DNA from: Desulfobacterales bacterium | GTDB lineage: Bacteria > Desulfobacterota > Desulfobacteria > Desulfobacterales > SpSt-501 | Reading direction: 5' to 3' | Assembly: GCA_025454255.1 (NCBI GenBank) | Contig: JALOOU010000021.1 | Span: forward strand, 1-64,000 | DNA length: 64,000 nt | Shown: positions 41,331 to 64,000 of the stretch, piece after piece | Layout of the letters: each line of letters starts with the position of its first letter | Numbering within the stretch: position 1 is the first letter of the stretch | The notes under the pieces: generated by a model | What the model saw: the letters and a program-made list of their open reading frames with translations, nothing else | The model's database searches: none | Told to the model about the DNA's origin: nothing | Position numbers and translations under genes: made by a program

Positions 41331-43532
41331 ATGAAAATCGACCGACGCAGTTTTCTGGCATTCGTCATCGGCGGCGCGGCGGGCAGCACGCTCTCTCCGC
41401 TGCCCTGGAAGCTCACCGACGACATCTCCATCTGGACCCAGAACTGGCCCTGGACGCCGGTGCCGCCCAGGGGGGAGCGCACCTTCGTCACCTCCACCTG
41501 CACGCTTTGCCCGGGCGGGTGCGGCATCAGCGTGTGCAAGGTGGACGATCGCGTGATCAAGGTCGAGGGCCTGAAGGGGCACCCGGTAAACGACGGCGGG
41601 ATCTGCCCGCTCGGATTGTCCGCGGCCCAGCTGCTCTATTCGTCGACCCGCGTCCCGGGCCCGCTCAAGAAAGTCGCGGGCGGCTGGCAGGAGGTGTCCT
41701 GGTCCTCGGCCCTGGGGGATATCGCCTTTCAGCTGTCCGAGCTGCGCGCCAAGGCAATGCCCGAATCCGTCGCCTGGATCTCCGAATCCGATCGCGGGAC
41801 GACCGCCGAGCTCTGCAAGCGGCTGCTCACGGTCTTCGGTTCGCCCAACTACATCCGCACCCCCTCGCTGCAGGACACCCTCGAGACCGCCCTGTACCTC
41901 ACTCAGGGGCAGCGGGCCATGGCCGGCTTCGACCTGGAGCAGGCCGATTTCGTTTTGAGCTTCGGCGCCGGGCTGATCGAAGGCTGGGGCTCCCCGGGCC
42001 ACATGCTCCGCGCCCGCAGCGCGATGCGCGCGCACGGGGGGCGGATCACCCACATCGACCCGCGCCTGTCCAAGACCGCCGCCAAGGCCGACCGCTGGAT
42101 TCCCATCCAGCCCGGCACGGAGGGCGCCCTGGCGCTGGGGCTGGCCCACGTGATCATCCGCGAGGGCCTCTTCCGCAAGGAGTTCGTCGACGGCCGCACG
42201 GCCGGATTCGAGGCCTTCAAGCAGCTCGCCGGCGAGGGGTTTGCCCCCGAGGCGGTGGCCAAGCTGACCGGCATCGATGCCAAGACCATCGTCGGCTTGG
42301 CCCAGTCCTTTGCCGGCGCCAAGAAACCGCTGGCGGTCTGCGGCCGCGGCAGCGGGCGGGTCCCCGGCGGCCTTCAGGAGGCGCTGGCGGTCCATTACCT
42401 GAACGCACTGGTCGGCAGCATCAACCGGCCCGGAGGGGTCATCGCCGTGCCGGAGCCGGAGTACATCAACTGGCCGGAGCCGGAGATGGATGCGACCGCC
42501 TCCAAAGGCATGCAGCAGCCGCGGCTGGACGGCGCCGGCTCGAGCGAAGCCCCGCTGGCCCGCTACCTGCTGAACCGGCTGCCCAAGGCGCTGGCCTCCG
42601 CTTCGGCCTCCCCCGTCCAGGCCCTCTTCGTCAGCGGGGCCAATCCTGTCCACGGTTTGGCCGGCACGGCGGCGGTCGCCCAGGCGTTCCGAAAAATCCC
42701 GCTCATCGTGAGCCTCTCCCCCTTCATGGACGAGACGGCCGCCATGGCCCATTACATCCTGCCGACCCACACCAGCCTGGAGCGCTACGAGGACGTGCCG
42801 TCAGCGCTCGGCTTCCCGCGGCCGGTCCTCGGCTTGTCCAAGCCGGCAATCAAACCCCTGCTCAACACCAAGCATGCGGGCGATGTGGTCATCGAACTGG
42901 CCCGGGCCCTGCGCAGCCCGGTGGCCGGGGCCTTCCCCTGGGCCGACTACGAGGGCTGCCTCAAGCAGACCCTGGGCGGCAGCTGGGCAGCGCTGACGAA
43001 GGCGGGGTTCGTCGTGGACGCCAAATTCAGCCCGTCGGGGTTCGAGACCGCCAGCAAAAAATTCGAATTCAAAAACAGCGAGCTCGCCAAGCTGCCGGCC
43101 TTTGCGGCCGCGGCCGCCCCCGGGGACGAACGCTCCTTTCCGCTGCTCCTGGTACCCTACGACACGCTGCGGCTGGCCGTCGGCGCCGTCGGCTCCCCGC
43201 CGTTTTTGATGAAGACGCTCGAGGAGACCGTCCTGCAGCAAGACGACGTGCTCGTGGAGATCAACCCGTCCACCGCCGGCGGGCTGGGGCTGGTCGAGGG
43301 TGCAGCCGCCATGCTGAGCACGCCCCAAGGCCGCGCCCGGGTCCGGGTGCACATCACCGACGGCATCATGCCCGGCCTGGTCGCCATGCCCCGGGGCTTG
43401 GGGCACACCGCCCACGACAAGTTCCTGGCAGGCAAAGGCGTCAACATCAACGATCTCATCGCTCCGGTCGAGGATCCCGCCTCCGGATTCGAAGCCGGCT
43501 GGGGCATCCGGGCCAAGTTGGCAAAGGCCTAA
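41331..43532 (+). CDS. qrcB: menaquinone reductase molybdopterin-family subunit QrcB
   Basis: Tat signal DRRSFLAFVIGGAAGS; TCTLCPGGCGISVCKVDDRVIKVEGLKGHPVNDGGICPLG. Confidence 0.92.
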   Translation: MKIDRRSFLAFVIGGAAGSTLSPLPWKLTDDISIWTQNWPWTPVPPRGERTFVTSTCTLCPGGCGISVCKVDDRVIKVEGLKGHPVNDGGICPLGLSAAQLLYSSTRVPGPLKKVAGGWQEVSWSSALGDIAFQLSELRAKAMPESVAWISESDRGTTAELCKRLLTVFGSPNYIRTPSLQDTLETALYLTQGQRAMAGFDLEQADFVLSFGAGLIEGWGSPGHMLRARSAMRAHGGRITHIDPRLSKTAAKADRWIPIQPGTEGALALGLAHVIIREGLFRKEFVDGRTAGFEAFKQLAGEGFAPEAVAKLTGIDAKTIVGLAQSFAGAKKPLAVCGRGSGRVPGGLQEALAVHYLNALVGSINRPGGVIAVPEPEYINWPEPEMDATASKGMQQPRLDGAGSSEAPLARYLLNRLPKALASASASPVQALFVSGANPVHGLAGTAAVAQAFRKIPLIVSLSPFMDETAAMAHYILPTHTSLERYEDVPSALGFPRPVLGLSKPAIKPLLNTKHAGDVVIELARALRSPVAGAFPWADYEGCLKQTLGGSWAALTKAGFVVDAKFSPSGFETASKKFEFKNSELAKLPAFAAAAAPGDERSFPLLLVPYDTLRLAVGAVGSPPFLMKTLEETVLQQDDVLVEINPSTAGGLGLVEGAAAMLSTPQGRARVRVHITDGIMPGLVAMPRGLGHTAHDKFLAGKGVNINDLIAPVEDPASGFEAGWGIRAKLAKA

Positions 43533-43590
43533 CGCCCATGGGCGGGCCGGCGCAACGGAGCTGAACCACTTGCCACGCGAAGGTGTCTGA

Positions 43591-44391
43591 ATGGATCAAC
43601 ACAACGGCAGCAACAAGAAATTCGGAATGGTGATCGACCTGGACAAATGCACGGGCTGCGGCGCCTGCATGGTGGCCTGCATGGCCGAGAACAACGTGCC
43701 CGTGCGTGAGGACGAAACCAACAAGATGTTGAGCCTCCACTGGATGCGAGTGTATCGGCTGACCAACGGCAAGCCCTTCCCGCAGTCCGAGGAGTGCTTC
43801 CTGCCGCGCCCCTGCCAGCACTGCGAGGGCCACCACGGCCACTCGCCCTGCGTCTCGGTCTGCCCGGCCACGGCCACCGACTACGACATGCACACCGGCA
43901 TCGTGAGCCAGATCCCCACGCGCTGCTTCGGCTGCCGCTACTGCATGGCCGCCTGCCCCTACCATGTCCGTCAGTTCAACTGGTGGGACCCGGTCTGGCC
44001 GGACGGGATGGAGCGGATGCTCAACCCCAACGTGTCGGTGCGCATGCGCGGAATCGTGGAGAAATGCAGCTTCTGCTATCACCGCTATCAGATCGCCAAG
44101 GACAAGGCCTATGCCGAGGGACGGCGCGAACTGCAGGAGGGCGAATACCAGACGGCCTGCACCCAGGCCTGCCCGGCGGGGGCGATCCTTTTCGGCGACC
44201 TGAACAACCCGAAGCATGCGGTGGCCCGGATCGCCCAGCCGGACCCGGCGCGCGAAGGCAAATCGCGCAACCCCAACGCCTTCCGGCTGCTCGAGCGGCT
44301 GGGCACCAACCCCAAGATCTACTACCTGTCCACCAGGGAATGGGTGCGCAAGGCCGGCGACACCGAGGTCAGGAAACCCGAGAAAGCCTGA
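43591..44391 (+). CDS. qrcC: menaquinone reductase iron-sulfur subunit QrcC
   Basis: FGMVIDLDKCTGCGACMVACMAENNVPV, CFGCRYCMAACPYHVRQFNWWDP, CTQACPAGAILFGDLNNP. Confidence 0.94.
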   Translation: MDQHNGSNKKFGMVIDLDKCTGCGACMVACMAENNVPVREDETNKMLSLHWMRVYRLTNGKPFPQSEECFLPRPCQHCEGHHGHSPCVSVCPATATDYDMHTGIVSQIPTRCFGCRYCMAACPYHVRQFNWWDPVWPDGMERMLNPNVSVRMRGIVEKCSFCYHRYQIAKDKAYAEGRRELQEGEYQTACTQACPAGAILFGDLNNPKHAVARIAQPDPAREGKSRNPNAFRLLERLGTNPKIYYLSTREWVRKAGDTEVRKPEKA

Positions 44392-44434
44392 TGCAGGCGC
44401 GCGTGCAACCTAAACCGGCAACGAGGATGAGAAC

Positions 44435-45688
44435 ATGGATTCCGCATTGATTCCCAACGGGGTGAAGCGCTGCTCGATCGGGCAGTTCGCCGTATGGATC
44501 GCCATCAACGGCGCGATTCTGTTGTGGGGCGTCTGGGCGCTGCTGCTCATTTATTTCAAAGGCCTCAACCAGACCAACATGACCAACGCCTACGGCTTTG
44601 CGCTCTGGATCTGGGCGGACCTGGCGGTCATCGCCCTGGGCGGCGGGGCCTTCTTCACCGGGCTGCTGCGCTATATCATCGGCAAAGACGAGCTCAAGCA
44701 CATCATCAACTACGCCGTGCTCATCGGGTTCGTCTGCTACAGCTCGGCCCTGCTGATCCTCGCCATCGACGTCGGCCAGCCCCTGCGGGCCTGGTTCATC
44801 TTCTGGCACGCCAACGTGCACTCGATGCTGACCGAAGTGGCCTTCTGCTTGACCTGCTACTTCGGCGTGCTGACCATCGAATACATCCCGCTGATACTCG
44901 AGAACCGCCAGCTCAACCGGGTGCCCTTCTTCCACCACCTGGCCCACAACATGCACCACATCATGGCGCTGTTCGCCGCCACGGGCGCGTTCCTCTCCTT
45001 CTTCCACCAGGGCTCCCTGGGCGGCGTGACGGGGGTGCTCTACGGCCGGCCCTTCGGTTTTCGCACGGGGCTGCTGGTCTGGCCCTGGACCTTTTTCCTC
45101 TACACCTGGTCGGCGGCGGCCTGCGGGCCCTGCTTCACGATCTTCATCACGCGCATCACCGAAATGGCGACCGGCAAAAAACTCGTCAAAGACAACGTCA
45201 TCGACCTGCTCGCGAAGATTGCCGGCTGGATGCTTGCAACCTACATGGTTGCCAAGATCATCGACACCTGGTACTGGGCAGCGGTTACGGCGCCCTCCAT
45301 GGGTTTCACGCTGATGGATTTTTATTCCAACAACCCCGGGTCGGCCTACGGGATTTGGATCCTGATCGCTGAAATCCTCGTGTGCGGTGTGCTGCCGGCC
45401 GTTCTGCTGCTCATGCCGAGCTTGCGCCGCAACCCCTCCGTGCTCTTCGCCGCGGTGACCCTGGCGGTGCTCGGCGCCTGCCTCAACCGCTGGGTGATGG
45501 TGCTGCAGATGCAGGCGGCGCCGGTGCTGAGCTTCGAGCCCTGGTTCACCTATTTCCCGAGCTGGCAGGAGGTCGCCACCACCATTCTGCCGGTCGCCTA
45601 CGGCGTCATCCTGATATCGCTGTCCTACCGCTACCTGCCGATTTTCCCGCAGGAGCCGGAACTCAATCCGATCGAGGGGGGCAAGTAA
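44435..45688 (+). CDS. qrcD: menaquinone reductase integral membrane subunit QrcD (NrfD family)
   Basis: 417 aa NrfD/PsrC-like polytopic protein directly after qrcC. Confidence 0.94.
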   Translation: MDSALIPNGVKRCSIGQFAVWIAINGAILLWGVWALLLIYFKGLNQTNMTNAYGFALWIWADLAVIALGGGAFFTGLLRYIIGKDELKHIINYAVLIGFVCYSSALLILAIDVGQPLRAWFIFWHANVHSMLTEVAFCLTCYFGVLTIEYIPLILENRQLNRVPFFHHLAHNMHHIMALFAATGAFLSFFHQGSLGGVTGVLYGRPFGFRTGLLVWPWTFFLYTWSAAACGPCFTIFITRITEMATGKKLVKDNVIDLLAKIAGWMLATYMVAKIIDTWYWAAVTAPSMGFTLMDFYSNNPGSAYGIWILIAEILVCGVLPAVLLLMPSLRRNPSVLFAAVTLAVLGACLNRWVMVLQMQAAPVLSFEPWFTYFPSWQEVATTILPVAYGVILISLSYRYLPIFPQEPELNPIEGGK

Positions 45689-52800: not shown

Positions 52801-54156
52801 TTATCCGGAGGCGATGTGCCGCTTCAGCTCGGCGATCCACGTCCAGGAAAAGGCCTCGCGGCGGCAGGGAAACACGCTGTTGTTGGCGCAAAGGGGCTCG
52901 GCGGTGAGGTCGTAGCGCGAAGCGGCCACCGCCTGCGGCCACAGGCTGGTGCCCGGTATCGGCGAATAGTAGGCCAGCAGGGGGCGGACACCGGCCTGCT
53001 TGACCGCGGCGATGGAGCGCAGCACCTCCGCTGCCGGCTGGCCGGGCAGCCCCACCAGGAGATAGGCGCCGACCTGGTCGCGGTTGAACCCGGCCTGAAT
53101 TAGGGTGCGGGCGGCGGCGGCGAACTCCGCGGCGGTGACTTTGCGGTCCAGCTGCCGGTGCTGCGCGCGGTCCGTCGTCTCCAGTCCCAGGCGCAGGGTT
53201 CGAAAGCCGGCCCGAAACATGAGCCCGGCGGTCTCCGGGGTGATCCCGCGGACGTGCACGGCGTTGGGAGTGTGGAAGCGCAGGGGCAGATCGGCGCGCA
53301 CGATGGCCTCGAGCACCGGCAGGGCGTGACCCGGCACATCGGATAGAAACGCATCGTCGTAGAGCGCCACGTCGGCGAGGCCGTGGCGCCGATGCCAATA
53401 GCGCAGCTCCGCGGCGACCGCGGCGGGGCTGCGGCGCAGCCGCCTGCTGTCCATCAGGTTCGCGGCGCAGTAGGCGCAGGCGAAGGGGCAGCCTCGCCGG
53501 GTCAAAAGGGGGAGGAAGGCGATGCGGCGCTGCAACTCCAGCGCCGGATAGGGATAGGCGTCGATGTCATCGGGCGCATGTCGGGGGGCCGCCCGGCAGC
53601 CGGTGTAGCGTGCGACCAGACCGAGGATGGACTCCTCGGCCTGGCCGGCAATCACCTCGTCCGCGCCGCTGACGCGCCGGGCATGCGCGGTGCAAAGCGT
53701 GGCATAGACGCCGCCGAGCACAACGGGCGCATTCGGGTGGATCTCTCGAATGAGGCCGATGGTCTCCTGCACGCCGGTGTACCAATAGGTCATCCCCGAG
53801 GTGACCAGCACCAGATCCGGCGCGGGCCGCGTGCGCAGATCTTCGCGCAACCACCCCGGGTCGATGCCGTAGCGGGAGAAGTGCCGCGGAACGTCTCTGA
53901 GCGGGGCGGGCTTGGGAAGCCGCGTTTTCAGAAACGGCCCGCAGCCGAAGGGCGCTTCGCGGGCCGGGCGCGGGGCGCGGGGGTGAAAGCGGTCCAGGCA
54001 GTCGACGTAGGAGACCCGGCAGCCGTGCTCCCGCAGGATGCCGGCGAGGGTGAGCAGCCCCAGGGGGGAGGCCCAGGCGTCGTAGGCGGCGAAGTCGTGA
54101 ATCCAGGGGTTGATGAGCAGGATATGCGGTGCGTCAGTCTTCGTCATCCGTGGCAA
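52801..54156 (-). CDS. B12-binding-domain radical SAM protein
   Basis: N-terminal B12-binding-like domain; radical SAM cysteines TRRGCPFACAYCAANLM. Confidence 0.92.
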   Translation of the reverse strand: MPRMTKTDAPHILLINPWIHDFAAYDAWASPLGLLTLAGILREHGCRVSYVDCLDRFHPRAPRPAREAPFGCGPFLKTRLPKPAPLRDVPRHFSRYGIDPGWLREDLRTRPAPDLVLVTSGMTYWYTGVQETIGLIREIHPNAPVVLGGVYATLCTAHARRVSGADEVIAGQAEESILGLVARYTGCRAAPRHAPDDIDAYPYPALELQRRIAFLPLLTRRGCPFACAYCAANLMDSRRLRRSPAAVAAELRYWHRRHGLADVALYDDAFLSDVPGHALPVLEAIVRADLPLRFHTPNAVHVRGITPETAGLMFRAGFRTLRLGLETTDRAQHRQLDRKVTAAEFAAAARTLIQAGFNRDQVGAYLLVGLPGQPAAEVLRSIAAVKQAGVRPLLAYYSPIPGTSLWPQAVAASRYDLTAEPLCANNSVFPCRREAFSWTWIAELKRHIASG

Positions 54157-54616
54157 AATACACCATCGAGGTCTTCTTCAGCTCCTCCCGGCTGAAGAGC
54201 AGGCGGTAGCTGTCCACGCCGGCCGCCTGCGACATGCGCCGGGCGGTTTCGCGGCAGGCCGTTTCGTCTTCGGCGTGGATCATGGTGTAGAGGTTGTAGG
54301 GCCAGGCGGGCGCCGGGTTGCGGCGGTAGCAGTGGGAGACCTGGCGAAAGCCTGCCATGATCCGGCCCACCGCGTCGGTGCGCTCCTCGTCCACCTTCCA
54401 GGCGGCCATGGCGTTGGCTTTGTAGCCGGTGCGCTGGTGGCGCAGGGTGGCGCCGAAACGGCGAACAACGCCCCGGGCGCAGAGGCCGCGCAGGGCCTCG
54501 AGCAGGGCCTCCTCGGCGATGCCGAGCCGGCGCGCGATCTCGCGGTAGGGCTGCGCGGTGATGGGCAGGTCCTCCTGGATCGAGGCGATGATCTTTTTTT
54601 CGAGGTCGGTCAGCAT
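54134..54616 (-). CDS. Lrp/AsnC-like siroheme decarboxylase subunit (AhbA/AhbB-type)
   Basis: AsnC HTH plus YRRNPAPAWPYNLYTMIHAED typical of AhbA/B. Confidence 0.82.
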   Translation of the reverse strand: MLTDLEKKIIASIQEDLPITAQPYREIARRLGIAEEALLEALRGLCARGVVRRFGATLRHQRTGYKANAMAAWKVDEERTDAVGRIMAGFRQVSHCYRRNPAPAWPYNLYTMIHAEDETACRETARRMSQAAGVDSYRLLFSREELKKTSMVYFATDDED

Positions 54617-54969: not shown

Positions 54970-56088
54970 TTAGCTCGCTTTAGGCATTTTAGCCCCTCTT
55001 GCCTTCGCCCTCTCGCCCTTCTCCGGAAACAGCCTTTCGATCTCCCCGGCGTCGGCCCGGCAGACACCGCGTTCGGTGATCAGTCCGGTGACCAGGCGCG
55101 CCGGGGTGACGTCGAAGGCGAAATTGGACGCCGGGGTGGCCGCCGGACAGATCCGCACCCGGTTGCGGCGTTGGCCGTCCCAGCCGTCGACAAAGCGCAC
55201 CTCGTCCGCTGCGCGCTCCTCGATCGGGATTCCGCGCAGCCCGTCGCTCAGACTCCAGTCGAAGCTGCTCGAGGGCAGCGCCACGTAAAACGGGACATGG
55301 TTGTCCCGCGCCGCGAGCGCCTTGAGATAGGTCCCGATCTTGTTGGCCACATCGCCGGCCGCCGTGGTGCGGTCGGTGCCGACGATGACGATATCCACCC
55401 GCCCATGCTGCATGAGATGGCCGCCGGCATTGTCGGCGACCAGCGTGTGGGGGATGCCGACCTCGGCGAGTTCCCAGGCCGTGAGCCGGGCGCCTTGGTT
55501 CAGCGGCCGGGTTTCGTCCACCCAGACGTGCAGCGGCAGGCCCCGTTCGAAGGCGGTGTAGATCGGGGCGGTGGCCGTGCCGTACTCCACGCAGGCGAGC
55601 CAGCCGGCATTGCAGTGGGTGAGCACATTGACCGGACGGCCGGCGTTGGCGCGGCTCAACGCCTCGATGAGCGGCAGGCCGTGGGCTCCGATCCTTCGGC
55701 AGCGGTCGACTTCGGCGGCGGTGATGGCTGCGGCCTCGGCCCAGGCGGCCGCTCCCCGCCGGAGCGGATCGGGGCAGGCGCGCACGGCGTGCAGCACCCG
55801 GTCGACGGCCCAGCAGAGGTTGACGGCGGTGGGCCGGGCGGCTTTGATCCGCTCTGCGGCCTCCATCAGGTGCGGCTCGTCCGCATTGCGGCGTGCGGCG
55901 CCTGCTATGGCCCAGGCCGCGGTGACGCCGATCAGGGGGGCGCCGCGCACCGCCAGGGTGCGGATGGCCTCGATCGCGTCCGCGACCGTCTTCAGGTCCA
56001 GCACCACCCGTTGGTGGGGCAGCAGGCGCTGGTCGATCACCTGGACGGTCTCGCCGTCCGCGCCTATCCAAATCGGCCGCGGGGTCAT
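54970..56088 (-). CDS. mtnA: S-methyl-5-thioribose-1-phosphate isomerase
   Basis: IRTLAVRGAPLIGVTAAWAIA; LTHCNAGWLACVEYGTATAPIYTA; VDETRPLNQGARLTAWEL; IVGTDRTTAAGDVANKIGTY. Confidence 0.96.
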   Translation of the reverse strand: MTPRPIWIGADGETVQVIDQRLLPHQRVVLDLKTVADAIEAIRTLAVRGAPLIGVTAAWAIAGAARRNADEPHLMEAAERIKAARPTAVNLCWAVDRVLHAVRACPDPLRRGAAAWAEAAAITAAEVDRCRRIGAHGLPLIEALSRANAGRPVNVLTHCNAGWLACVEYGTATAPIYTAFERGLPLHVWVDETRPLNQGARLTAWELAEVGIPHTLVADNAGGHLMQHGRVDIVIVGTDRTTAAGDVANKIGTYLKALAARDNHVPFYVALPSSSFDWSLSDGLRGIPIEERAADEVRFVDGWDGQRRNRVRICPAATPASNFAFDVTPARLVTGLITERGVCRADAGEIERLFPEKGERAKARGAKMPKAS

Positions 56089-56097
56089 GCGGGAGGA

Positions 56098-56469
56098 TCA
56101 GAGCTTCGCCAGGGCGAAGTCGGTTTGCACTTCGCCCTGCAGCACGTGGCGGCGGAAGACCTGGCGCGTCCGGTTGGCGTCCATGTGCTGGTAGACGATC
56201 GGCTCGGAGTCGATCACCTCGACGGTGATGTTGGGCTCGCTGCTGCACATGCCCATGCAGCCGGAGGTGACGACCCGGATGTCCTGCCGGTCGGCCTCGG
56301 CCATTTCGGCCATCAGGGATTTCATGACCTCACGGGCGCCGGCCGCGATCCCGCAGGTTCCCATGTGCACCGTGATTTTAATGCGCACCTCACCGTCGTG
56401 CCGCAGGGCCGTGGCCTTGGTGGTCTCCTCCTTGATGCGTTTGAGGTCGTCAATGGTCAGCTTGGGCAT
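56098..56469 (-). CDS. thioredoxin-like (2Fe-2S) ferredoxin domain protein (HndB/HydA-associated type)
   Basis: HMGTCGIAAGAREVMKSL...VVTSGCMGMCSSEPNITVEV. Confidence 0.88.
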   Translation of the reverse strand: MPKLTIDDLKRIKEETTKATALRHDGEVRIKITVHMGTCGIAAGAREVMKSLMAEMAEADRQDIRVVTSGCMGMCSSEPNITVEVIDSEPIVYQHMDANRTRQVFRRHVLQGEVQTDFALAKL

Positions 56470-57028
56470 GGCTGGTCTCCTCCCTGCCGGAATTGCGGTT
56501 CATCGTTGCGAGCGCCTCGCGAATCCCCTGTTCCACGAGCCGCACCGTGCCGGGGTCGCTTAAGTCCGCGCCGCCCTCGGAGAGCTCCCGGGTGTCGAGC
56601 GAGAATTCGTCCCCATCTACCGTGTGCGAGTAAGCAAAGTCAATATGCGGGTTGCCGATGATCAGCATGGCGAGCGTTGCCGCCACATCGCCGAGGGGGG
56701 CGCGGTCGATGTGGCTGTGGCGGAAAACGGCCGCCACCTCCGTGCCGCGCCCGGGCTCCGCGGCGACGGTGAGATCTCCCTCGCAGCGCCGGGCAGCGGC
56801 CGCCAGCAGCGAGAGCCCGAGCCCCACTCGCCGGGTGGTGCGCGAGGTGATGAAGGGGTCCTCCGGGTTGCTCGCCTTCTCCGGCGGCATGCCGGGCCCG
56901 TCGTCGCGCACGGTGAGTTTCAACCGGTCGGCCGCCAGGGACTCCTCCACCCGGATCTCGATGCGGCCGGCCCCGGCGGTGATCCCGTTCTCGACGACAT
57001 CCAGGATGTGCAGCGACAGCTCCCGCAT
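56450..57028 (-). CDS. ATP-binding (HATPase_c) histidine kinase-like protein
   Basis: LHILDVVENGITAGAGRIEIRVEE, DDGPGMPPE, GLGLSLLAAAARRCEGDL, EPGRGTEVAAVF. Confidence 0.88.
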   Translation of the reverse strand: MRELSLHILDVVENGITAGAGRIEIRVEESLAADRLKLTVRDDGPGMPPEKASNPEDPFITSRTTRRVGLGLSLLAAAARRCEGDLTVAAEPGRGTEVAAVFRHSHIDRAPLGDVAATLAMLIIGNPHIDFAYSHTVDGDEFSLDTRELSEGGADLSDPGTVRLVEQGIREALATMNRNSGREETSHAQADH

Positions 57029-57787
57029 TCAGCTCAGCACTCCCCGGCCCTGCTCCGCGCGCAGCGCCCGTCCGACCTCCCGCAGGCTTGCCGCCGCCAT
57101 CCGGAACGTGGTGGCGGCCCGGCCGATCTCTTTTAGAAAGTGGGCATCCGAGGAGGTGATGCAGGCGCGGGCGCCGATCATCGGAAAGCGTTGCCGGGCC
57201 TGGGCCAGGGGGACCCGGTAGGAGACCTCCACCCCGTCCAGCGCCAGGTCCGGCGGGATGAATCCCAGCTGATTGATGATGCCGTTGGCCGGCCGGTCCA
57301 CATGGGCGCTGATGCTGAGGCCGCCCAGTGCATGCGTGCGGTGCACCACCTGCTCCAGGCTGTGCTGCGTGGCGCCGATCAGGAGCCGCGGGTTTTCGCT
57401 CACCACCTCGTTGTCCTCGTTGGCCACCACCTGGTAGCCGAACACTTCCGGCTGGTTTTCGCCGGGCAGACCGGCGTAGACGAACGCCTGCATGGCGAGG
57501 GCCTGGTCCAGCTCCTCGAAGAGGGCCAGAATGTGGACCTCCTCCCGCGTGCAGACCTCCATGCCCGGCAGCACCGCCAGCCCCGTCCGCTGGCCCGCGC
57601 GCATGGCGGCCGCGGCGTTTTCGGCGGAGTTGTGGTCGCAGACGGCGATCAGTTCGAGGCCCGCCTCCCGACAGCGAAGAATGAGATCGCGCGGGCTCAT
57701 CTCCCAGTCGCCGCAGGGGGAGAGGCAGGTGTGGAGGTGCAGGTCGGCCTTGAACGTCCGCAGGCCGCTGTGCTCAGCGACGGTCAT
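57029..57787 (-). CDS. PHP domain metal-dependent phosphoesterase
   Basis: FKADLHLHTCLSPCGDWEMSPRDLILRCREAGLELIAVCDHNSAEN; SSDAHFLKEIG. Confidence 0.92.
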   Translation of the reverse strand: MTVAEHSGLRTFKADLHLHTCLSPCGDWEMSPRDLILRCREAGLELIAVCDHNSAENAAAAMRAGQRTGLAVLPGMEVCTREEVHILALFEELDQALAMQAFVYAGLPGENQPEVFGYQVVANEDNEVVSENPRLLIGATQHSLEQVVHRTHALGGLSISAHVDRPANGIINQLGFIPPDLALDGVEVSYRVPLAQARQRFPMIGARACITSSDAHFLKEIGRAATTFRMAAASLREVGRALRAEQGRGVLS

Positions 57788-57799
57788 GGGGTCGCGGCT

Positions 57800-58150
57800 T
57801 CAGGCGGCGTCCGGGTTCCCCACGCCGGCCGCATGCAGCCGCCCCGCCAGCTCGTAGGCCGAGTGCGCCGCGATCAGGATCGGGATGCCCTCCTGGTCGG
57901 CTTTGCGGACGGTCTCCTCGTCGGGGGCCCGGCCTCCGGTCAGCACCACCGCCGCCATCTCCCGCAGCACCGCCACGGCGACGATGTTCTGGTGGCCTTG
58001 CACGGTCAGCCAGACGCAGCCCTGGGGGGCATTGGCCATGATCTCGCTCAGCAGGTCGCCGCAATAGCCGCCCCTGATCTCCCGCTCCAACCCTTTGTCG
58101 CCGGTGGCCGCCTGCAGGCCGAATCGCTCGCGCATCTCCCTGACGTTCAT
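57800..58150 (-). CDS. DRTGG domain protein
   Basis: REIRGGYCGDLLSEIMANAPQGCVWLTVQGHQNIVAVAVLREMAAVVLTGGRAPDEETVRKADQEGIPIL. Confidence 0.85.
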   Translation of the reverse strand: MNVREMRERFGLQAATGDKGLEREIRGGYCGDLLSEIMANAPQGCVWLTVQGHQNIVAVAVLREMAAVVLTGGRAPDEETVRKADQEGIPILIAAHSAYELAGRLHAAGVGNPDAA

Positions 58151-59454
58151 TTTCCTTCCTCTCGTTTTTCCGGCTGCCAGCGGCAGTCGTCCAGGTCGGC
58201 TTGCCCCCGCACCACGTCCTCCGCAAAGGTCCGGCAGTCCGGCGCCCCGCAGGCCCCGCAGCCCCATCCGGCCACCTGCTCGAGGATGGACTCGATGCGC
58301 TGCATCTGCTCGAGCGACAGCGCCGGTTTGCGGTCGCCGAAGTGCCGGGTCAGCTCCATCGCATTCTGGTCGGGCTGAAACCGGCCCTTGTCGTAGAGCC
58401 GCAGGATGGTGTTGCGCGGGACCCGCCGCCCCAGCCCGTAGATGTGGAGCATGCGCTGGACGTTGCTCTTGGCAAGGTACTTGTCCACGGCGTTGAGCAC
58501 CCCTCCCAGGCAGCCTTCGCGGCAGGTGCGGAATTCGAAATACTCGACATCCTGGAAAAGCCCCATCTCGATTTTCTGCAGGTACTCGATGGCCTCCTTC
58601 AGGCCGGGCACGGCCATCGATTTTTCGACCTTCATACTGGCGATTTCGCCGCCGGACATCGCCACGAGGGCAGCGTTGCCGGTGGCGCAGGTCTCGAACT
58701 CCAGCAGGGTCTCGGAGAAGGGCGTCCCTTCGTGCAGGATCGTCTCGACCCGCTGTTTCAACTCCGGGTAGATCTCGTTGATCCCGATCGGGATGGCCGG
58801 GTGTTTGCGCGTGGCCGCCATGCCGTCGATCGGCGACACCGCCATGGTCGGGCAGGGGTTGATGTAGTACTTGATCACCTTGCGTCCCTGCGCCTCGTAC
58901 TGGGGGATCAGGCGCTCCCGGACCTCGCGGGCCATCAGCGCCACAGGCCGGAGCACCGGCAGCACATTGGGCAGCAGACTGGGGAACTGGAAGGCGATCA
59001 GCCGCACCACGGCCGGGCAGACCGGGGAGATCAACGGCCAGGGGGCCTCCCGCGATTCCCGGTTGCGGCGGATGAACTCGGCCGCTGCGAGCTGAAACAT
59101 CTCGAGAAAAATGGACATGTCGATGGTGTGGTGAAACCCCATCTGCCGCAGGCCGAGCAGCACGTCCTTGGGCATGGCGTTGGGGAACTGGGCATAGAGC
59201 ACGGGCGAGACGAGGGCGATGGCCACATGGTCCCGGCCGACGGCCTCGGGCGCGCCGCCGGCCGCCGTTACGGCGCCCGCCGCGCAGGTGCGGATGCAGG
59301 CGCCGCAGCCGATGCACAGATCGACCAACCGGATCGAGGTGCGGTTGCGGATGCGAATGGCCCGGGTCGGACAGACCTTCAGGCAGGCGGCGCAGCCGTT
59401 GCAGCGTTCGGGATGAAACCGGACGTACGGGGTGGTTTGGTAATCAGGGGTCAT
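58147..59454 (-). CDS. [FeFe]-hydrogenase C-terminal-like iron-sulfur protein with degenerate H-cluster motifs
   Basis: 2x[4Fe-4S] (CNGCAACLKVCPTRA, CIGCGACIRTCAAGA); L1/L2/L3-like SPVCPAVV, INPCPTMAVSP, FRTCREGCLGG; C-terminal Fe-S CGACGAPDCRTFAEDVVRG. Confidence 0.88.
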   Translation of the reverse strand: MTPDYQTTPYVRFHPERCNGCAACLKVCPTRAIRIRNRTSIRLVDLCIGCGACIRTCAAGAVTAAGGAPEAVGRDHVAIALVSPVLYAQFPNAMPKDVLLGLRQMGFHHTIDMSIFLEMFQLAAAEFIRRNRESREAPWPLISPVCPAVVRLIAFQFPSLLPNVLPVLRPVALMAREVRERLIPQYEAQGRKVIKYYINPCPTMAVSPIDGMAATRKHPAIPIGINEIYPELKQRVETILHEGTPFSETLLEFETCATGNAALVAMSGGEIASMKVEKSMAVPGLKEAIEYLQKIEMGLFQDVEYFEFRTCREGCLGGVLNAVDKYLAKSNVQRMLHIYGLGRRVPRNTILRLYDKGRFQPDQNAMELTRHFGDRKPALSLEQMQRIESILEQVAGWGCGACGAPDCRTFAEDVVRGQADLDDCRWQPEKREEGK

Positions 59455-59798
59455 GCGGCCTCTTTGTTCCCCTCGATGGAAAAGCACATGCGCACGCGGG
59501 TCCCCTGGCCCGGCGCGGAGTCGATGTGGATCTCGTCCGAGTTGTTCTTCATGTTGGAGAGCCCCATGCCCGCGCCGAAGCCCATCTCGCGGGCCTCCTC
59601 GGAGGCGGTGGAGTAACCGGGCTGCATGGCGCGTTCGATGTCCTCGATTCCCGGCCCATCGTCGTTGATCTCGAGGGTCAGCTGGTCGGCCGCGATGTCC
59701 AGGTGGATCTGGCCGTTGCCGCCGTGGATCACCGCATTCATCTCGCCCTCGTAGCAGCAGATCGCGATGCGCCGCACCAGGGCGGGCTCCAGGTGCAT
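59451..59798 (-). CDS. anti-sigma factor-like HATPase_c protein
   Basis: EGEMNAVIHGGNGQIHLDI, INDDGPGIEDIERAM, GFGAGMGLSNMKNNSDEIHIDSAPGQGTRV; the start could lie further upstream. Confidence 0.85.
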   Translation of the reverse strand: MHLEPALVRRIAICCYEGEMNAVIHGGNGQIHLDIAADQLTLEINDDGPGIEDIERAMQPGYSTASEEAREMGFGAGMGLSNMKNNSDEIHIDSAPGQGTRVRMCFSIEGNKEAA

Positions 59799-59856
59799 CG
59801 ACTTGAGGATGTTTTGCGGAGGCTGGCCATGCGGGTACGCTGCAGCCGGCGGCGGC

Positions 59857-60219
59857 TTATCGCCGCCCGTCCAGCCCCGTGAGGCCCAGGGCGTGCAGCC
59901 GGCCGCAGCAGGCGAACATGCCGAAGGGGGTGGAGAAGATCGGCATCCGCTCGTTTTTGGCCACCTCGATCACCTCGGGCAGCGGAACTTTACCGCGCAC
60001 GAAGACGATGGCCACCACCCCGGCGATCTTGGAGGTGCGCACGGTCTGGACGGAGGTCAGCCCGGTCAGCAGAAGGATCCCCTCGGTCGGCCGGGCGAGC
60101 ACATCGCTCATGAGGTCGCTCGCCCCGCAGCGCGTGATCTCGGTCGCGAGCCCGTCCTCTCCCAGCAGCACCGTCGCCTCTAGCACCCGCACGATTTCGG
60201 CCAGTTTCATCGCCTGCAT
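59857..60219 (-). CDS. DRTGG domain protein (second copy)
   Basis: MKLAEIVRVLEATVLLGEDGLATEITRCGASDLMSDVLARPTEGILLLTGLTSVQTVRTSKIAGVVAIVFVRGKVP. Confidence 0.85.
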   Translation of the reverse strand: MQAMKLAEIVRVLEATVLLGEDGLATEITRCGASDLMSDVLARPTEGILLLTGLTSVQTVRTSKIAGVVAIVFVRGKVPLPEVIEVAKNERMPIFSTPFGMFACCGRLHALGLTGLDGRR

Positions 60220-60298
60220 CCTTGACTGTGGGGTCGGCTGAAACATCACACCCGGAGCGGAATTTCGAAGAGCACTATAAAATGGCGGTGTAGGGGTG

Positions 60299-61627
60299 TC
60301 AAGCAGAGGCCGCCGCCATCCTGCGGCAGCCGGCGGCGATGGCCTCGACCCGGCGCATGACCTCTGCCACATCGAACGTCAGCAGGCGCCGGTGGCGCAC
60401 CAGCGGCCTGCCCGCCACCCACACCGCCTCCACATCCGCCCCGGAGGCGGCATACACGACGGCCGAGGCCGGATGGTGCAGGGGGGTCAAGTGCGGCTGT
60501 CGGGTGTCGATGACGATCAGATCCGCCTGTTTGCCGAGCTCGATCGAGCCGATCTCCCGCTCCAGTCCCAGGGCGCGCGCGCCCTCGATGGTGGCCATGC
60601 GAATCGCGCGCTCGGCGGAAATCAGCGTCGGGTCCAAGCCGTCCACCTTGTGGAGCTTGGCCGCCAGGTCCATGGCGGCGAACAGGTCGAGATCGTTGTT
60701 GCTGGCGCAGCCGTCGGTGCCGAGGCCCACGGTGATCCCGGCGGCCAGCATGGCCGCCACCGGCGCGATGCCTGCGCCGAGCTTGAGGTTGCTTTCGGGG
60801 TTGTGCGACACCTTCGCCCCCCGCTCGGCGATGAGATCGATGTCGGCTGCTTCCACCTGCACGCAGTGGACCAGGAGGGTCTGCGGGTCGAGCACGCCGA
60901 TGCGCTCGAGCCATCCGATGGGCGACACGCCGTGCGCGGCCGAAATGAGCTCATGCTCCCGGCAGGTTTCGGCCGCGTGCACCTGGAACAGCAGCCCCAG
61001 CTCCGCGCACAGCCGTTTGGCCGCGACAAGGGTCCGCTCGGAGCAGGTGTAGGGGGAGTGGCAAAAGACCGAGGGGGTGATGGTGCCGGTGCGGCCGAGC
61101 CAGGCGCTCGCGAACTCGCGCGCGGCGCGGATGTTCTCGGCCGGGTCGGCCACGCCCGGCGCCGGGAAGTCGACGACCCCCTGTCCCAGCACCGCGCGCA
61201 GGCCGGCCTCCCGCAGCGCTTCGGCCACGGTGTTTTCGTGAAAATAGCCGTCACAGCAGGTGGTGGTGCCCGAAAGCGCCATCTCGGCGCAGGCGAGCAG
61301 CGCGCCCCAGCGGACGGACGCCGGCGTGATCACCGCCCGCTCGACCGGGAAGATGTGCTCGTTCAGCCAGGCCTCCAGCGGCAGGTCGTCCGCCAGTCCG
61401 CGGAAGAGCGTCATCGGCAGGTGGGTGTGGGTATTGATGAGCCCGGGCATGACGATGCCGCCGCGGGCGTCGCTGAGCTCGCGCGCCGCGGGCAGGGGCG
61501 CGGGTTCGGTTCGCCCGATCGCCGCAATCGTCTCCCCGCGCACCCCGACCCACCCCCCGGCGATGACATCAAAATCCGGGTTGCACGTGAGGATCGTCCC
61601 GTTGTGGATGAGGAGGTCGAAGGCCAT
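60299..61627 (-). CDS. mtaD: amidohydrolase: S-adenosylhomocysteine / methylthioadenosine deaminase-like
   Basis: MPGLINTHTHLPMTLFRGLADDLPLEAWLNEHIFPVE; VHAAET; SHNPESNLKLGAGIAPV; GTDGCASNNDLDLF. Confidence 0.92.
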   Translation of the reverse strand: MAFDLLIHNGTILTCNPDFDVIAGGWVGVRGETIAAIGRTEPAPLPAARELSDARGGIVMPGLINTHTHLPMTLFRGLADDLPLEAWLNEHIFPVERAVITPASVRWGALLACAEMALSGTTTCCDGYFHENTVAEALREAGLRAVLGQGVVDFPAPGVADPAENIRAAREFASAWLGRTGTITPSVFCHSPYTCSERTLVAAKRLCAELGLLFQVHAAETCREHELISAAHGVSPIGWLERIGVLDPQTLLVHCVQVEAADIDLIAERGAKVSHNPESNLKLGAGIAPVAAMLAAGITVGLGTDGCASNNDLDLFAAMDLAAKLHKVDGLDPTLISAERAIRMATIEGARALGLEREIGSIELGKQADLIVIDTRQPHLTPLHHPASAVVYAASGADVEAVWVAGRPLVRHRRLLTFDVAEVMRRVEAIAAGCRRMAAASA

Positions 61628-61693
61628 GGGAAGTCGCTAAGGGAAATGCCTATTATAATGCCTACCGTGCCTAAAATAGTAAGAAAAGGCAGA

Positions 61694-63013
61694 CTACTTC
61701 CTCGCCCGGATGGCGGCCGCCAGGCGATTCACTTCGTCCATCGCCGCTTGCGCATCGAAGGTCAAGATCCGGCGGTCGCGCAGCACGACCCGGCCGGCGA
61801 TCACGACCGTGGCCACGTCGCTTCCGCGCGCGGCGTACACCAGATGGGAGGCCGGGTGGTACATCGGGGTCAGGTGCGGCTTGCGGGTGTCGAGAACGAT
61901 CAGGTCGGCCTGCTTGCCGGCCTCGATCGAGCCGATGCGCTCGCCCAGGCCGAGGGCCCGCGCGCCGTCGATCGTGGCCATGCGCAGGACGGTTTGAGCA
62001 TCCATGACCGTGGGGTCGAGGGTTTGCCCTTTGTGGAGCTTGGCGGCGGTGTCCATCTCCTGGAAGAGGTCGAGATTGTTGTTGCTGGCGGCCCCGTCGG
62101 TGCCGAGCCCCACGCAGATGCCTGCGGCGAGCAAGCGCGGCACCGGGGCGATGCCCGAGGCCAGCTTCATATTGCTCTCCGGGTTGTGGGACACCTTGAC
62201 CGCGTGCGCTTGCAGCAGCCCGATATCATCCTCGGTCAACGCGACGCAATGGCAGGCGAGCACGTTCGGCGCCAGCAGCCCCAGCGCCGCCAGGTGGCCC
62301 ACGGGGGTGCGGCCGTAGCGCGCGATGATCGTCTCCACCTCGCCGCTGGTCTCGGCCAGATGGATCACCATCGGCAGCCCGTGGCGCTGCGCCAGGCGGA
62401 AGGCCCGCTCGAGCAGCTCCGGCCGGCACAGATAGGGCGAGTGGGGCTCGACGGCGACCGAGATCAGCGGGTCGCCGCGGAAGGCATCGATGAGCCGCTG
62501 CGTGCAGGCGAACCCGTTTTCGGCGTCGCCGTAGGCCGGGGAGGGAAAATCGAAGAGCACCTCGCCGACCACGGCGCGCATGCCCGCCTGCTGCGCGGCG
62601 CGGCCGACCGCCGCTGCGAACAGATACATGTCGCAAAAGGTGGTGGTGCCGGAGAGGATCATCTCGGCGCAGGCCAGAAGGGCCCCGCTTCGGACCTGCT
62701 CTGCGTCGAGGCCGGCCTCGGCCGGGAAGATGTGCTCGTTCAGCCAGGCCATCAGCGGCAGGTCGTCCGCCAGGCCCCGGAAAAGGGTCATGGCGGCGTG
62801 GGTGTGGGTGTTCACCAGGCCGGGCATGATGATGCCGCCGCGGGCGTCGATGACCTCGGCGGCCGGCAGGCCGGAGAGCTCCGCCGTTGTGCCGACGGCC
62901 GCGATGCGGCCGTCCCGGACGGCGACGGCGCCGTCCGGGATCACGCGGTTTTCGGCATCCACGGTGAGCAGCAGGCCGCGGTTGAGAACCAGGTCAGCCG
63001 CAGTCGCCGTCAT
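61694..63013 (-). CDS. mtaD: amidohydrolase: S-adenosylhomocysteine / methylthioadenosine deaminase-like (paralogue)
   Basis: MPGLVNTHTHAAMTLFRGLADDLPLMAWLNEHIFPAE; SHNPESNMKLASGIAPV; GTDGAASNNNLDLF. Confidence 0.92.
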   Translation of the reverse strand: MTATAADLVLNRGLLLTVDAENRVIPDGAVAVRDGRIAAVGTTAELSGLPAAEVIDARGGIIMPGLVNTHTHAAMTLFRGLADDLPLMAWLNEHIFPAEAGLDAEQVRSGALLACAEMILSGTTTFCDMYLFAAAVGRAAQQAGMRAVVGEVLFDFPSPAYGDAENGFACTQRLIDAFRGDPLISVAVEPHSPYLCRPELLERAFRLAQRHGLPMVIHLAETSGEVETIIARYGRTPVGHLAALGLLAPNVLACHCVALTEDDIGLLQAHAVKVSHNPESNMKLASGIAPVPRLLAAGICVGLGTDGAASNNNLDLFQEMDTAAKLHKGQTLDPTVMDAQTVLRMATIDGARALGLGERIGSIEAGKQADLIVLDTRKPHLTPMYHPASHLVYAARGSDVATVVIAGRVVLRDRRILTFDAQAAMDEVNRLAAAIRARK

Positions 63014-63833
63014 CGATCGAGTCCAGTATGCGGTTTACAAGCCGCCCCATCCGCGGGGCCGCCTGCCGCGCGGTGGCGATGATCGCATCCACCGAGGCCG
63101 GCTCGGGGCGGTCCGGGTCGTGGACGTTGGTGACCACCGAGAGGCCGAGGACGGCCATCCCGCCGTGGACGGCGGCGATCACCTCCATCACCGTCGAAAA
63201 GCCCACCGCGTCCGCGCCGATGGCTCTCAGGAACCGGATCTCAGCGGGCGTCTCCAGGGAAGGCCCTTTCAGGCCGGCGTAGACTCCGCGGCGCAAGGGG
63301 AGGGTCGCGGCTGCCGCCGCGCGCTCCGCCAGCGACAGGAGGCCCGGGTCGTAGGCGGCCGACATGTCCGGGAACCTGTCCCCCCAGCGCTCTTCGTTGG
63401 GGCCGACCAGCGGGTTTTCGCCGGTCAGGTTGAGGTGGTCGCCGATCAGCATGATATCGCCGGGGCGAAAAGCCGGGTTGAGGCCGCCGGCGGCATTGGT
63501 GACGATGAGGCGGCGCACGCCCATCTCCTGCAGCACCCGGACCGGGAAGACGACCTCGGCCGGCGAGCGCCCCTCGTAGAGGTGGAATCGGCCCTGCAGC
63601 AGCAGGATCGAGCGGCCCTGGACATCCCCCGCCAGGAGTCGGCCGGCATGGGATTCGACTGTGGGCAAGGGAAAGTGCGGGATGGCGTCGTAGTCGAAGG
63701 CCGCGGCCACCTTCAGCCCGGAGAAGGCATCCCCCAAGCCGGTGCCGGCGAGCAGGCCGATGCGGGGGGAGGAGGGGGTCCGCTCCAGCAAAAAGGCGGC
63801 GGCCTGCTTCGCTTTTTCGAGAGGATTCTTCAT
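62994..63833 (-). CDS. purine nucleoside phosphorylase (trimeric PNP/MTAP family)
   Basis: LLAGTGLGDAFSGL, HAGRLLAGDVQGRSILLLQGRFHLYEG, VTNAAGGLNPAFRPGDIMLIGDHLNLTGENPLVG, LKGPSLETPAEIRFL. Confidence 0.94.
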   Translation of the reverse strand: MKNPLEKAKQAAAFLLERTPSSPRIGLLAGTGLGDAFSGLKVAAAFDYDAIPHFPLPTVESHAGRLLAGDVQGRSILLLQGRFHLYEGRSPAEVVFPVRVLQEMGVRRLIVTNAAGGLNPAFRPGDIMLIGDHLNLTGENPLVGPNEERWGDRFPDMSAAYDPGLLSLAERAAAAATLPLRRGVYAGLKGPSLETPAEIRFLRAIGADAVGFSTVMEVIAAVHGGMAVLGLSVVTNVHDPDRPEPASVDAIIATARQAAPRMGRLVNRILDSIDDGDCG

Positions 63834-63854
63834 ATTCGCATCGAACGCCCGGGG

Positions 63855-63883
63855 ATCTTATGTCAGCCCCGCGATCCAGTCAA
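63855..63883 (-). promoter_or_regulatory. sigma-70-type promoter for the PNP-led operon
   Basis: Minus strand TTGACT-N17-TAAGAT, about 22 bp upstream of the PNP ATG (63833). Confidence 0.6.
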
Positions 63884-64000
63884 CTCGAACCTTGCCTCTG
63901 TGCTCCGCAGGCTTGACGCATGCGCGGTTCGGGCCATAGGGGCCATGGTCGGGCCGCCCGCCCGGCGTTGACATTTCTCGGAGGTTGTGGAATAAGGCCA

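Follow-up and report, generated by a model that had tools for sequence, protein, structure and literature searches.

A seven-gene cassette, probably an accessory module of HydBC-type enzymes, lodged before mtnA in Desulfobacterales

In Acetobacterium woodii the HATPase HydE is encoded in the hyd operon, is placed outside the enzyme and perhaps acts in assembly or signalling (PMC3315566), and hisK and hydD accompany the NiFe-HydABCSL of A. mobile while being absent from the holoenzyme (PMC9304861). Earlier mentions of small HATPase, PHP and DRTGG genes next to bifurcating enzymes go no further than remarking that they are 'not part of the holoenzyme'. Here we describe a cassette of seven genes of this kind in a 64,000-nucleotide stretch of DNA (the window; positions 1-64000 of contig JALOOU010000021.1) from a Desulfobacterales bacterium with a draft genome of 4.1 Mb, 87% complete, whose closest named relative is a Desulfobacterales metagenome-assembled genome, isolate Prado109 (Fe-S protein 87% identical). 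The cassette lies between genes for a purine nucleoside phosphorylase (PNP) and two deaminases (mtaD1, mtaD2) on one side and mtnA on the other, that is, within the salvage genes for 5'-methylthioadenosine (MTA; Table 1). The observation is real and conserved, and the cassette is probably best filed as a HydBC accessory module in an unusual place.

Like A. woodii hydE/hydD and A. mobile hisK/hydD, of the Bfu family, the cassette brings a stand-alone histidine-kinase-type HATPase of the sort found in HydBC operons (PMC3315566, PMC9304861). Unlike those systems it has seven genes, which also encode a second HATPase, a PHP protein, a pair of DRTGG proteins and a degenerate Fe-S protein of hydrogenase type, and it stands apart from hydBC, surrounded by mtn genes. 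Group C [FeFe]-hydrogenases, putative sensory proteins such as Thermotoga HydS and Ruminococcus albus HydS, share with it a hydrogenase-fold Fe-S protein and signalling-type neighbours; the protein of the window differs from them in that no PAS domain was found, the relay cysteine is never present and only the four cubane cysteines remain. No described Bfu/Stn enzyme counts the cassette proteins among its subunits. Paper searches on DRTGG/PHP/HATPase genes with hydrogenase gave nothing on this seven-gene cassette, and the papers found do not describe MTA clusters of this kind with HydBC or with this cassette.

The genomic company of the cassette points to an enzyme with a HydBC core. Neighbourhoods were surveyed at 80 loci from a scan of named genomes, many on short contigs with ~10 kb readable, and hyd genes occurred within the readable 10 kb of 43 of them, in line with the first-pass annotation of this DNA, which had named DRTGG, HATPase and PHP genes as known neighbours of electron-bifurcating hydrogenase genes in some anaerobes. 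A hydC...hydB(-GltD/Fdh) operon encloses the cassette, its gene order unchanged, in the distant lineages WOR-3, Stahlbacteria, Aminicenantes and several Deltaproteobacteria (L128-L129, L139, L147-L149, L151-L152). In many Desulfobacterales it is divergent from hydC-hydB(-fdhA), where an in-frame TGA, as would be expected of a selenocysteine codon, interrupts fdhA. On the contig available, most cassettes are accompanied not by mtn genes but by NuoE, NuoF and Fdh genes.

The window's own contig runs on to 66318, and coding for hydC (64057), a third DRTGG gene (64602) and hydB (65020, truncated by the contig end) begins just past the window edge, divergent from PNP. By architecture, HydC homologues are NuoE/HoxE-like and HydB homologues combine 2Fe-2S, NuoF and ferredoxin regions (Bfu-type), as in the HydBC core of Bfu/Stn enzymes. 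It had been claimed that no hydrogenase catalytic subunits lay nearby, and that a hydABC set immediately outside the window would explain the cassette away. This stands as far as HydA is concerned, neither HydA nor a second PF02906 protein having been found in the 87%-complete genome, and falls for hydC and hydB, which both adjoin the window; the genome holds six NuoF-like genes. A TTGACA-N10-TTGTGAAAT(G)TT-like promoter motif is conserved ahead of hydC in L224, L226, L241, L243 and others, and the hydC promoter region showed no obvious palindromic operator, only the TTGACA-N10-TTGTGAAAT-like motif. In sister families hydB or the DRTGG gene is followed by a gene for a GltD-like protein with a fused RnfB-type Fe-S region (L159:10118-11998, L216, L217, L224, L226), with a membrane-anchor-like N-terminus in L216, L217 and L224. 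The fusion resembles the Stn-type enzyme, which suggests a Stn-like, perhaps membrane-bound, transhydrogenase.

The Fe-S protein of the cassette (residues counted from the upstream GTG at 59487) matches Pfam PF02906 with 66 bits, and its predicted model (predicted local distance difference test, pLDDT, 72) corresponds along its full length to [FeFe] hydrogenases (Foldseek probability 1.00, E 1.3e-14). In an alignment of 84 members the cubane ligands C157, C212, C322 and C326 are present in 83-84, the remainder being gaps, and the C-terminal four-Cys domain is invariant, gaps aside. A cysteine at the proton-relay position (CpI C299, TSCCP) occurs in 0 of the 84, where V, I, T, A, M or L is found instead. 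Because the cubane cysteines are kept but the relay cysteine never is, the protein is, to judge by its residues, almost certainly non-catalytic, and we infer that it takes part in redox or electron-transfer processes and does not catalyse H2 turnover. In two genomes of the genus the degenerate hydrogenase Fe-S gene is present as two tandem copies (L076/L035 and L077/L036), the copies being 76-78% and 61-62% identical to the window's protein.

Conservation extends to the other cassette proteins. DRTGG-a alone falls under the Pfam DRTGG (PF07085) cut-off (22.5 vs 25.2 bits); 17 of the 19 members of its family reach E<=0.001 with the DRTGG model, and structure prediction gives it a DRTGG fold (pLDDT 91.5; Foldseek template-modelling score, TM, 0.82 to AF1212, 2ioj), followed by the CBS/DRTGG regulatory region of C. 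perfringens pyrophosphatase and by HPr kinase/phosphatase. The N, G1 and G2 ATP-binding boxes are conserved in both GHKL ATPases (73 and 59 aligned members), HATPase-a being most like the SpoIIAB anti-sigma kinase, and the PHP metal-ligand motifs are conserved across aligned members. A domain scan found no STAS-type partner, sigma factor, receiver or histidine-phosphotransfer domain among the eleven genes and, in the cassette, no domain for DNA binding; the cassette itself is therefore unlikely to regulate mtn gene transcription. In L067, L100, L111, L114 and L119 a cyclic-nucleotide (cNMP)-binding, CRP-type domain fused to a cassette 2Fe-2S domain is encoded right after the cassette (L067 12881-13150, reversed coordinates), accompanied by a short stand-alone CRP-type protein as the next gene, and no obvious helix-turn-helix was seen in the sequences of these proteins.

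Strong, full-length orthologues of the Fe-S protein were found in 37 of 194 genomes of Desulfobacterales, and the cassette is therefore optional in the order. It lies directly 5' of mtnA at 17 of the 80 loci; the gene-neighbourhood search proposed in the first-pass annotation thus finds it beside mtnA well beyond one genome, and an accident of a single genome was rejected. Cassette-free Desulfobacterales (L216-L224, L226) have mtnA in an unbroken salvage cluster, at its fullest PNP-mtaD1-mtaD2-adeC-mtnA-AhbA-like-radical SAM, and many other mtn clusters also lack the cassette. Because these genomes keep the cluster uninterrupted, the cassette is an insertion before mtnA. The NirD/AhbA-like and B12-binding radical SAM genes trail mtnA across the order, cassette present or not, and in one genome (L232, G054) a cassette remnant, PHP and HATPase-b alone, precedes mtnA, with two Fe-S genes elsewhere in the genome.

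Three changes of mtn-linkage state are required on the Fe-S tree. Approximately unbiased (AU) tests rejected a single mtn-linked clade on this tree (p 0.0014; 0.018 without the long branches L104 and L112) and likewise a single origin of linkage on the mtnA tree (p 0.0165); these are modest p-values, and independent origins may be simulated by horizontal transfer. One ancient insertion behind all mtn-linked cassettes is disfavoured by these tests, and the linkage would have arisen in at least two separate groups, so that the placement within an MTA/nucleoside-salvage gene set described earlier for the window appears more than once.

The eleven genes of the stretch were confirmed as co-directional minus-strand genes in their open reading frames, order, strand, domains and junctions. 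PNP and mtaD1 overlap by 20 nucleotides, as do HATPase-b and the 2Fe-2S gene; the Fe-S gene overlaps HATPase-a (ATGA, 59451/59454) and DRTGG-b by 4 nucleotides each, PHP and HATPase-b abut, and 9 nucleotides separate the 2Fe-2S gene from mtnA, compared with 88 between mtaD2 and DRTGG-a. They had been read as one operon from a candidate promoter ahead of PNP. That promoter is present. A second, conserved promoter at the end of mtaD2 (60302-60274) speaks against the single operon; none of 200 shuffles equalled it in score, and no comparable site was found upstream of the other genes tested. TTGACA-N17/18-TATA(C/G)T precedes the cassette in 10 of 12 testable mtnA-linked loci outside the f4 group (L104 included), the exceptions being L088, which has no site, and L081, with a weaker -10; f4 cassettes are preceded by TTGACA-N17-TATTTT, and similar sites also stand ahead of several cassettes unlinked to mtn genes. 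In two genomes of the same genus (G127, G190) PNP and mtaD1, with hydBC, lie on one contig and the cassette with mtnA on another. Because of the conserved internal promoter and these split contigs, two units, PNP-mtaD1-mtaD2 and cassette-mtnA, are most likely, and read-through from mtaD2 into the cassette may occur.

As in the known deamination route through MtaD, nucleoside phosphorylase and MtnA, the salvage genes comprise PNP, two MtaD-like deaminases and MtnA. Unlike in known MTA deamination clusters, PNP is of the general inosine/guanosine type: it passes TIGR01700 (293.5 vs 293.35) and lies far under the methylthioinosine phosphorylase model (49.6 vs 223), so the 'methylthioinosine-type' assignment made earlier is not retained. 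The MtaD1 and MtaD2 proteins fall under every curated cut-off among the NCBIfam models compared, no MTA nucleosidase above cut-off was found in the genome, and S-adenosylhomocysteine (SAH) hydrolase and a class II aldolase-family candidate are encoded elsewhere. These profiles are consistent with a route in which MTA or 5'-deoxyadenosine would be deaminated, phosphorolysed by PNP and isomerised by MtnA. An Rfam scan for riboswitches gave nothing credible, and control by S-adenosylmethionine or SAH was rejected, with SAH hydrolase located elsewhere and no riboswitch found. Away from these genes, a molybdopterin oxidoreductase, a 4Fe-4S ferredoxin-type subunit and an NrfD-type membrane subunit are consecutive at 41331-45688 (+) of the window, a respiratory Mo enzyme.

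Table 1. Genes and promoters at and around the cassette (window coordinates)
Feature	Position	Strand	Basis or remark
Putative promoter of hydC-DRTGG-hydB, TTGACA-N17-AATAAG	63968..63996	+	consensus match
Promoter of PNP-mtaD1(-mtaD2), TTGACT-N17-TAAGAT, 9/12	63855..63883	-	consensus match
PNP, purine nucleoside phosphorylase (PNP_UDP_1; inosine/guanosine type)	62994..63833	-	domain and NCBIfam profile matches
mtaD1, amidohydrolase of MTA/SAH/5'-deoxyadenosine deaminase group	61694..63013	-	profile matches
mtaD2, second deaminase of the same group	60299..61627	-	profile matches
Near-consensus sigma-70 promoter at mtaD2 end, TTGACA-N17-TATAGT, 11/12	60274..60302	-	consensus match and conservation
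DRTGG-a, 117 aa, start ATG 60210	59857..60210	-	family matches and predicted fold
HATPase-a, stand-alone GHKL ATPase, SpoIIAB-like	59451..59798	-	TIGR01925 70 bits, below cut-off
Degenerate [FeFe]-hydrogenase-fold Fe-S protein, 2x[4Fe-4S] ferredoxin domain, RnfB-type 4-Cys C-terminus	58147..59454	-	Pfam, fold, alignment
DRTGG-b	57800..58150	-	Pfam DRTGG 29.0 vs cut-off 25.2
PHP-domain phosphoesterase with PHP_C	57029..57787	-	Pfam; metal-ligand motifs conserved
HATPase-b, GHKL ATPase with conserved C-terminal extension	56450..57028	-	Pfam, alignment
2Fe-2S thioredoxin-like protein	56098..56469	-	homologous to NfnB/HoxF/HydB N-terminal domain
mtnA, 5-methylthioribose-1-phosphate isomerase	54970..56088	-	TIGR00512, 399 vs cut-off 279 bits
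NirD/AhbA-like AsnC-type gene	54134-54616	-	kept downstream of mtnA across order
B12-binding radical SAM gene	52801-54156	-	kept downstream of mtnA across order

We suggest that the cassette probably belongs to a bifurcating NAD(H) enzyme as an accessory module for signalling or assembly and came to lie among MTA salvage genes secondarily. The neighbourhoods support its association with HydBC well; a phospho-signalling step is a guess. The HydBC core served would be of the Bfu/Stn type, whether the whole enzyme is a transhydrogenase, a formate dehydrogenase or a hydrogenase. Together with the 2Fe-2S protein, the Fe-S protein may read or receive electrons at ferredoxin/NADH potential. Phosphorylation by both GHKL ATPases could be opposed by dephosphorylation by the PHP protein, with the DRTGG proteins as an adenine-nucleotide gate and the HydBC enzyme itself as the post-translational target. 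In the Desulfobacterales lineage the MTA/purine-nucleoside salvage cluster would already have been divergent from hydC-DRTGG-hydB when the cassette, with its own promoter, was inserted before mtnA; mtnA would now be read mainly from the cassette promoter, PNP-mtaD1-mtaD2 retaining their own. Several observations weigh against this proposal. Wherever the contig is readable in the window's genus, hydB is not followed by a catalytic subunit. In f4 genomes the cassette lies at mtnA and hydBC is not near, which makes it less likely that the cassette must act on a HydBC next to it. The same pre-mtnA site was reached in at least two groups, which suggests that chance alone does not account for the linkage to MTA salvage.

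It is quite possible, though less likely than not, that this linkage is neutral, the cassette having landed beside genes already neighbouring hydC-hydB and mtnA merely using its promoter, which is compatible with the function proposed above for the cassette itself. Several cassette-free salvage clusters diverge from a DRTGG gene or from hydC-DRTGG-hydB with the RnfB-GltD fusion, and hydC/DRTGG/hydB are divergent within 1.5 kb at 16 of 30 PNP loci surveyed in the order, mostly in cassette-free genomes. The salvage/hydBC divergence is thus more widespread than the cassette, and a cassette moving to hydBC would land beside PNP-mtaD; the two same-genus genomes that hold both units apart also agree with neutrality. 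Against it, the mtnA-adjacent insertion persists even where Fe-S identity has fallen to about 44-60%, and it is found in at least two groups, one of them (f4) without hydBC nearby.

A system for assembly or ATP-driven electron activation of the HydBC enzyme, with no phospho-signalling, is unlikely. Three Fe-S-rich regions and two ATPases without a receiver, STAS or histidine-phosphotransfer domain would fit it, as would the homology of the 2Fe-2S protein to the HydB/NfnB N-terminal domain and the published suggestion of an assembly role for HydE (PMC3315566), but the PHP phosphoesterase and two DRTGG (HPr-kinase-N-like) domains indicate phosphate or nucleotide signalling, and HATPase-a is most SpoIIAB-like. 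Control of MTA/SAH recycling by a cassette that responds to redox state or nucleotides within one operon, as first proposed, is improbable: the repeated position of the cassette before mtnA, with at least two origins by the AU tests, and the DRTGG-type neighbours of PNP in cassette-free genomes speak for such control, but the cassette has its own conserved promoter and no DNA-binding domain, most cassettes stand beside NuoE/NuoF/Fdh genes and without mtn genes, many genomes with mtn clusters lack it, and SAH hydrolase is encoded elsewhere.

With the accessory-module reading, the seven genes now form a defined module, present in widely separated lineages with strictly conserved residues and a promoter that is itself conserved, and its role becomes directly testable. 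A neighbourhood of HydBC-type redox genes and MTA/5'-deoxynucleoside salvage genes is exposed in several families of the order, of which we found no prior description. It is unlikely, though conceivable, that bifurcating NAD(H)/ferredoxin chemistry is coupled in Desulfobacterales to the salvage of 5'-deoxynucleosides (MTA, 5'-deoxyadenosine), the DRTGG proteins of hydC-hydB and of the cassette sensing adenine-derived nucleosides or nucleotides and setting the activity of the HydBC enzyme. If true, such coupling would explain both the divergence of hydC-DRTGG-hydB and PNP-mtaD-mtnA in many families and the fixation of the cassette before mtnA at least twice.

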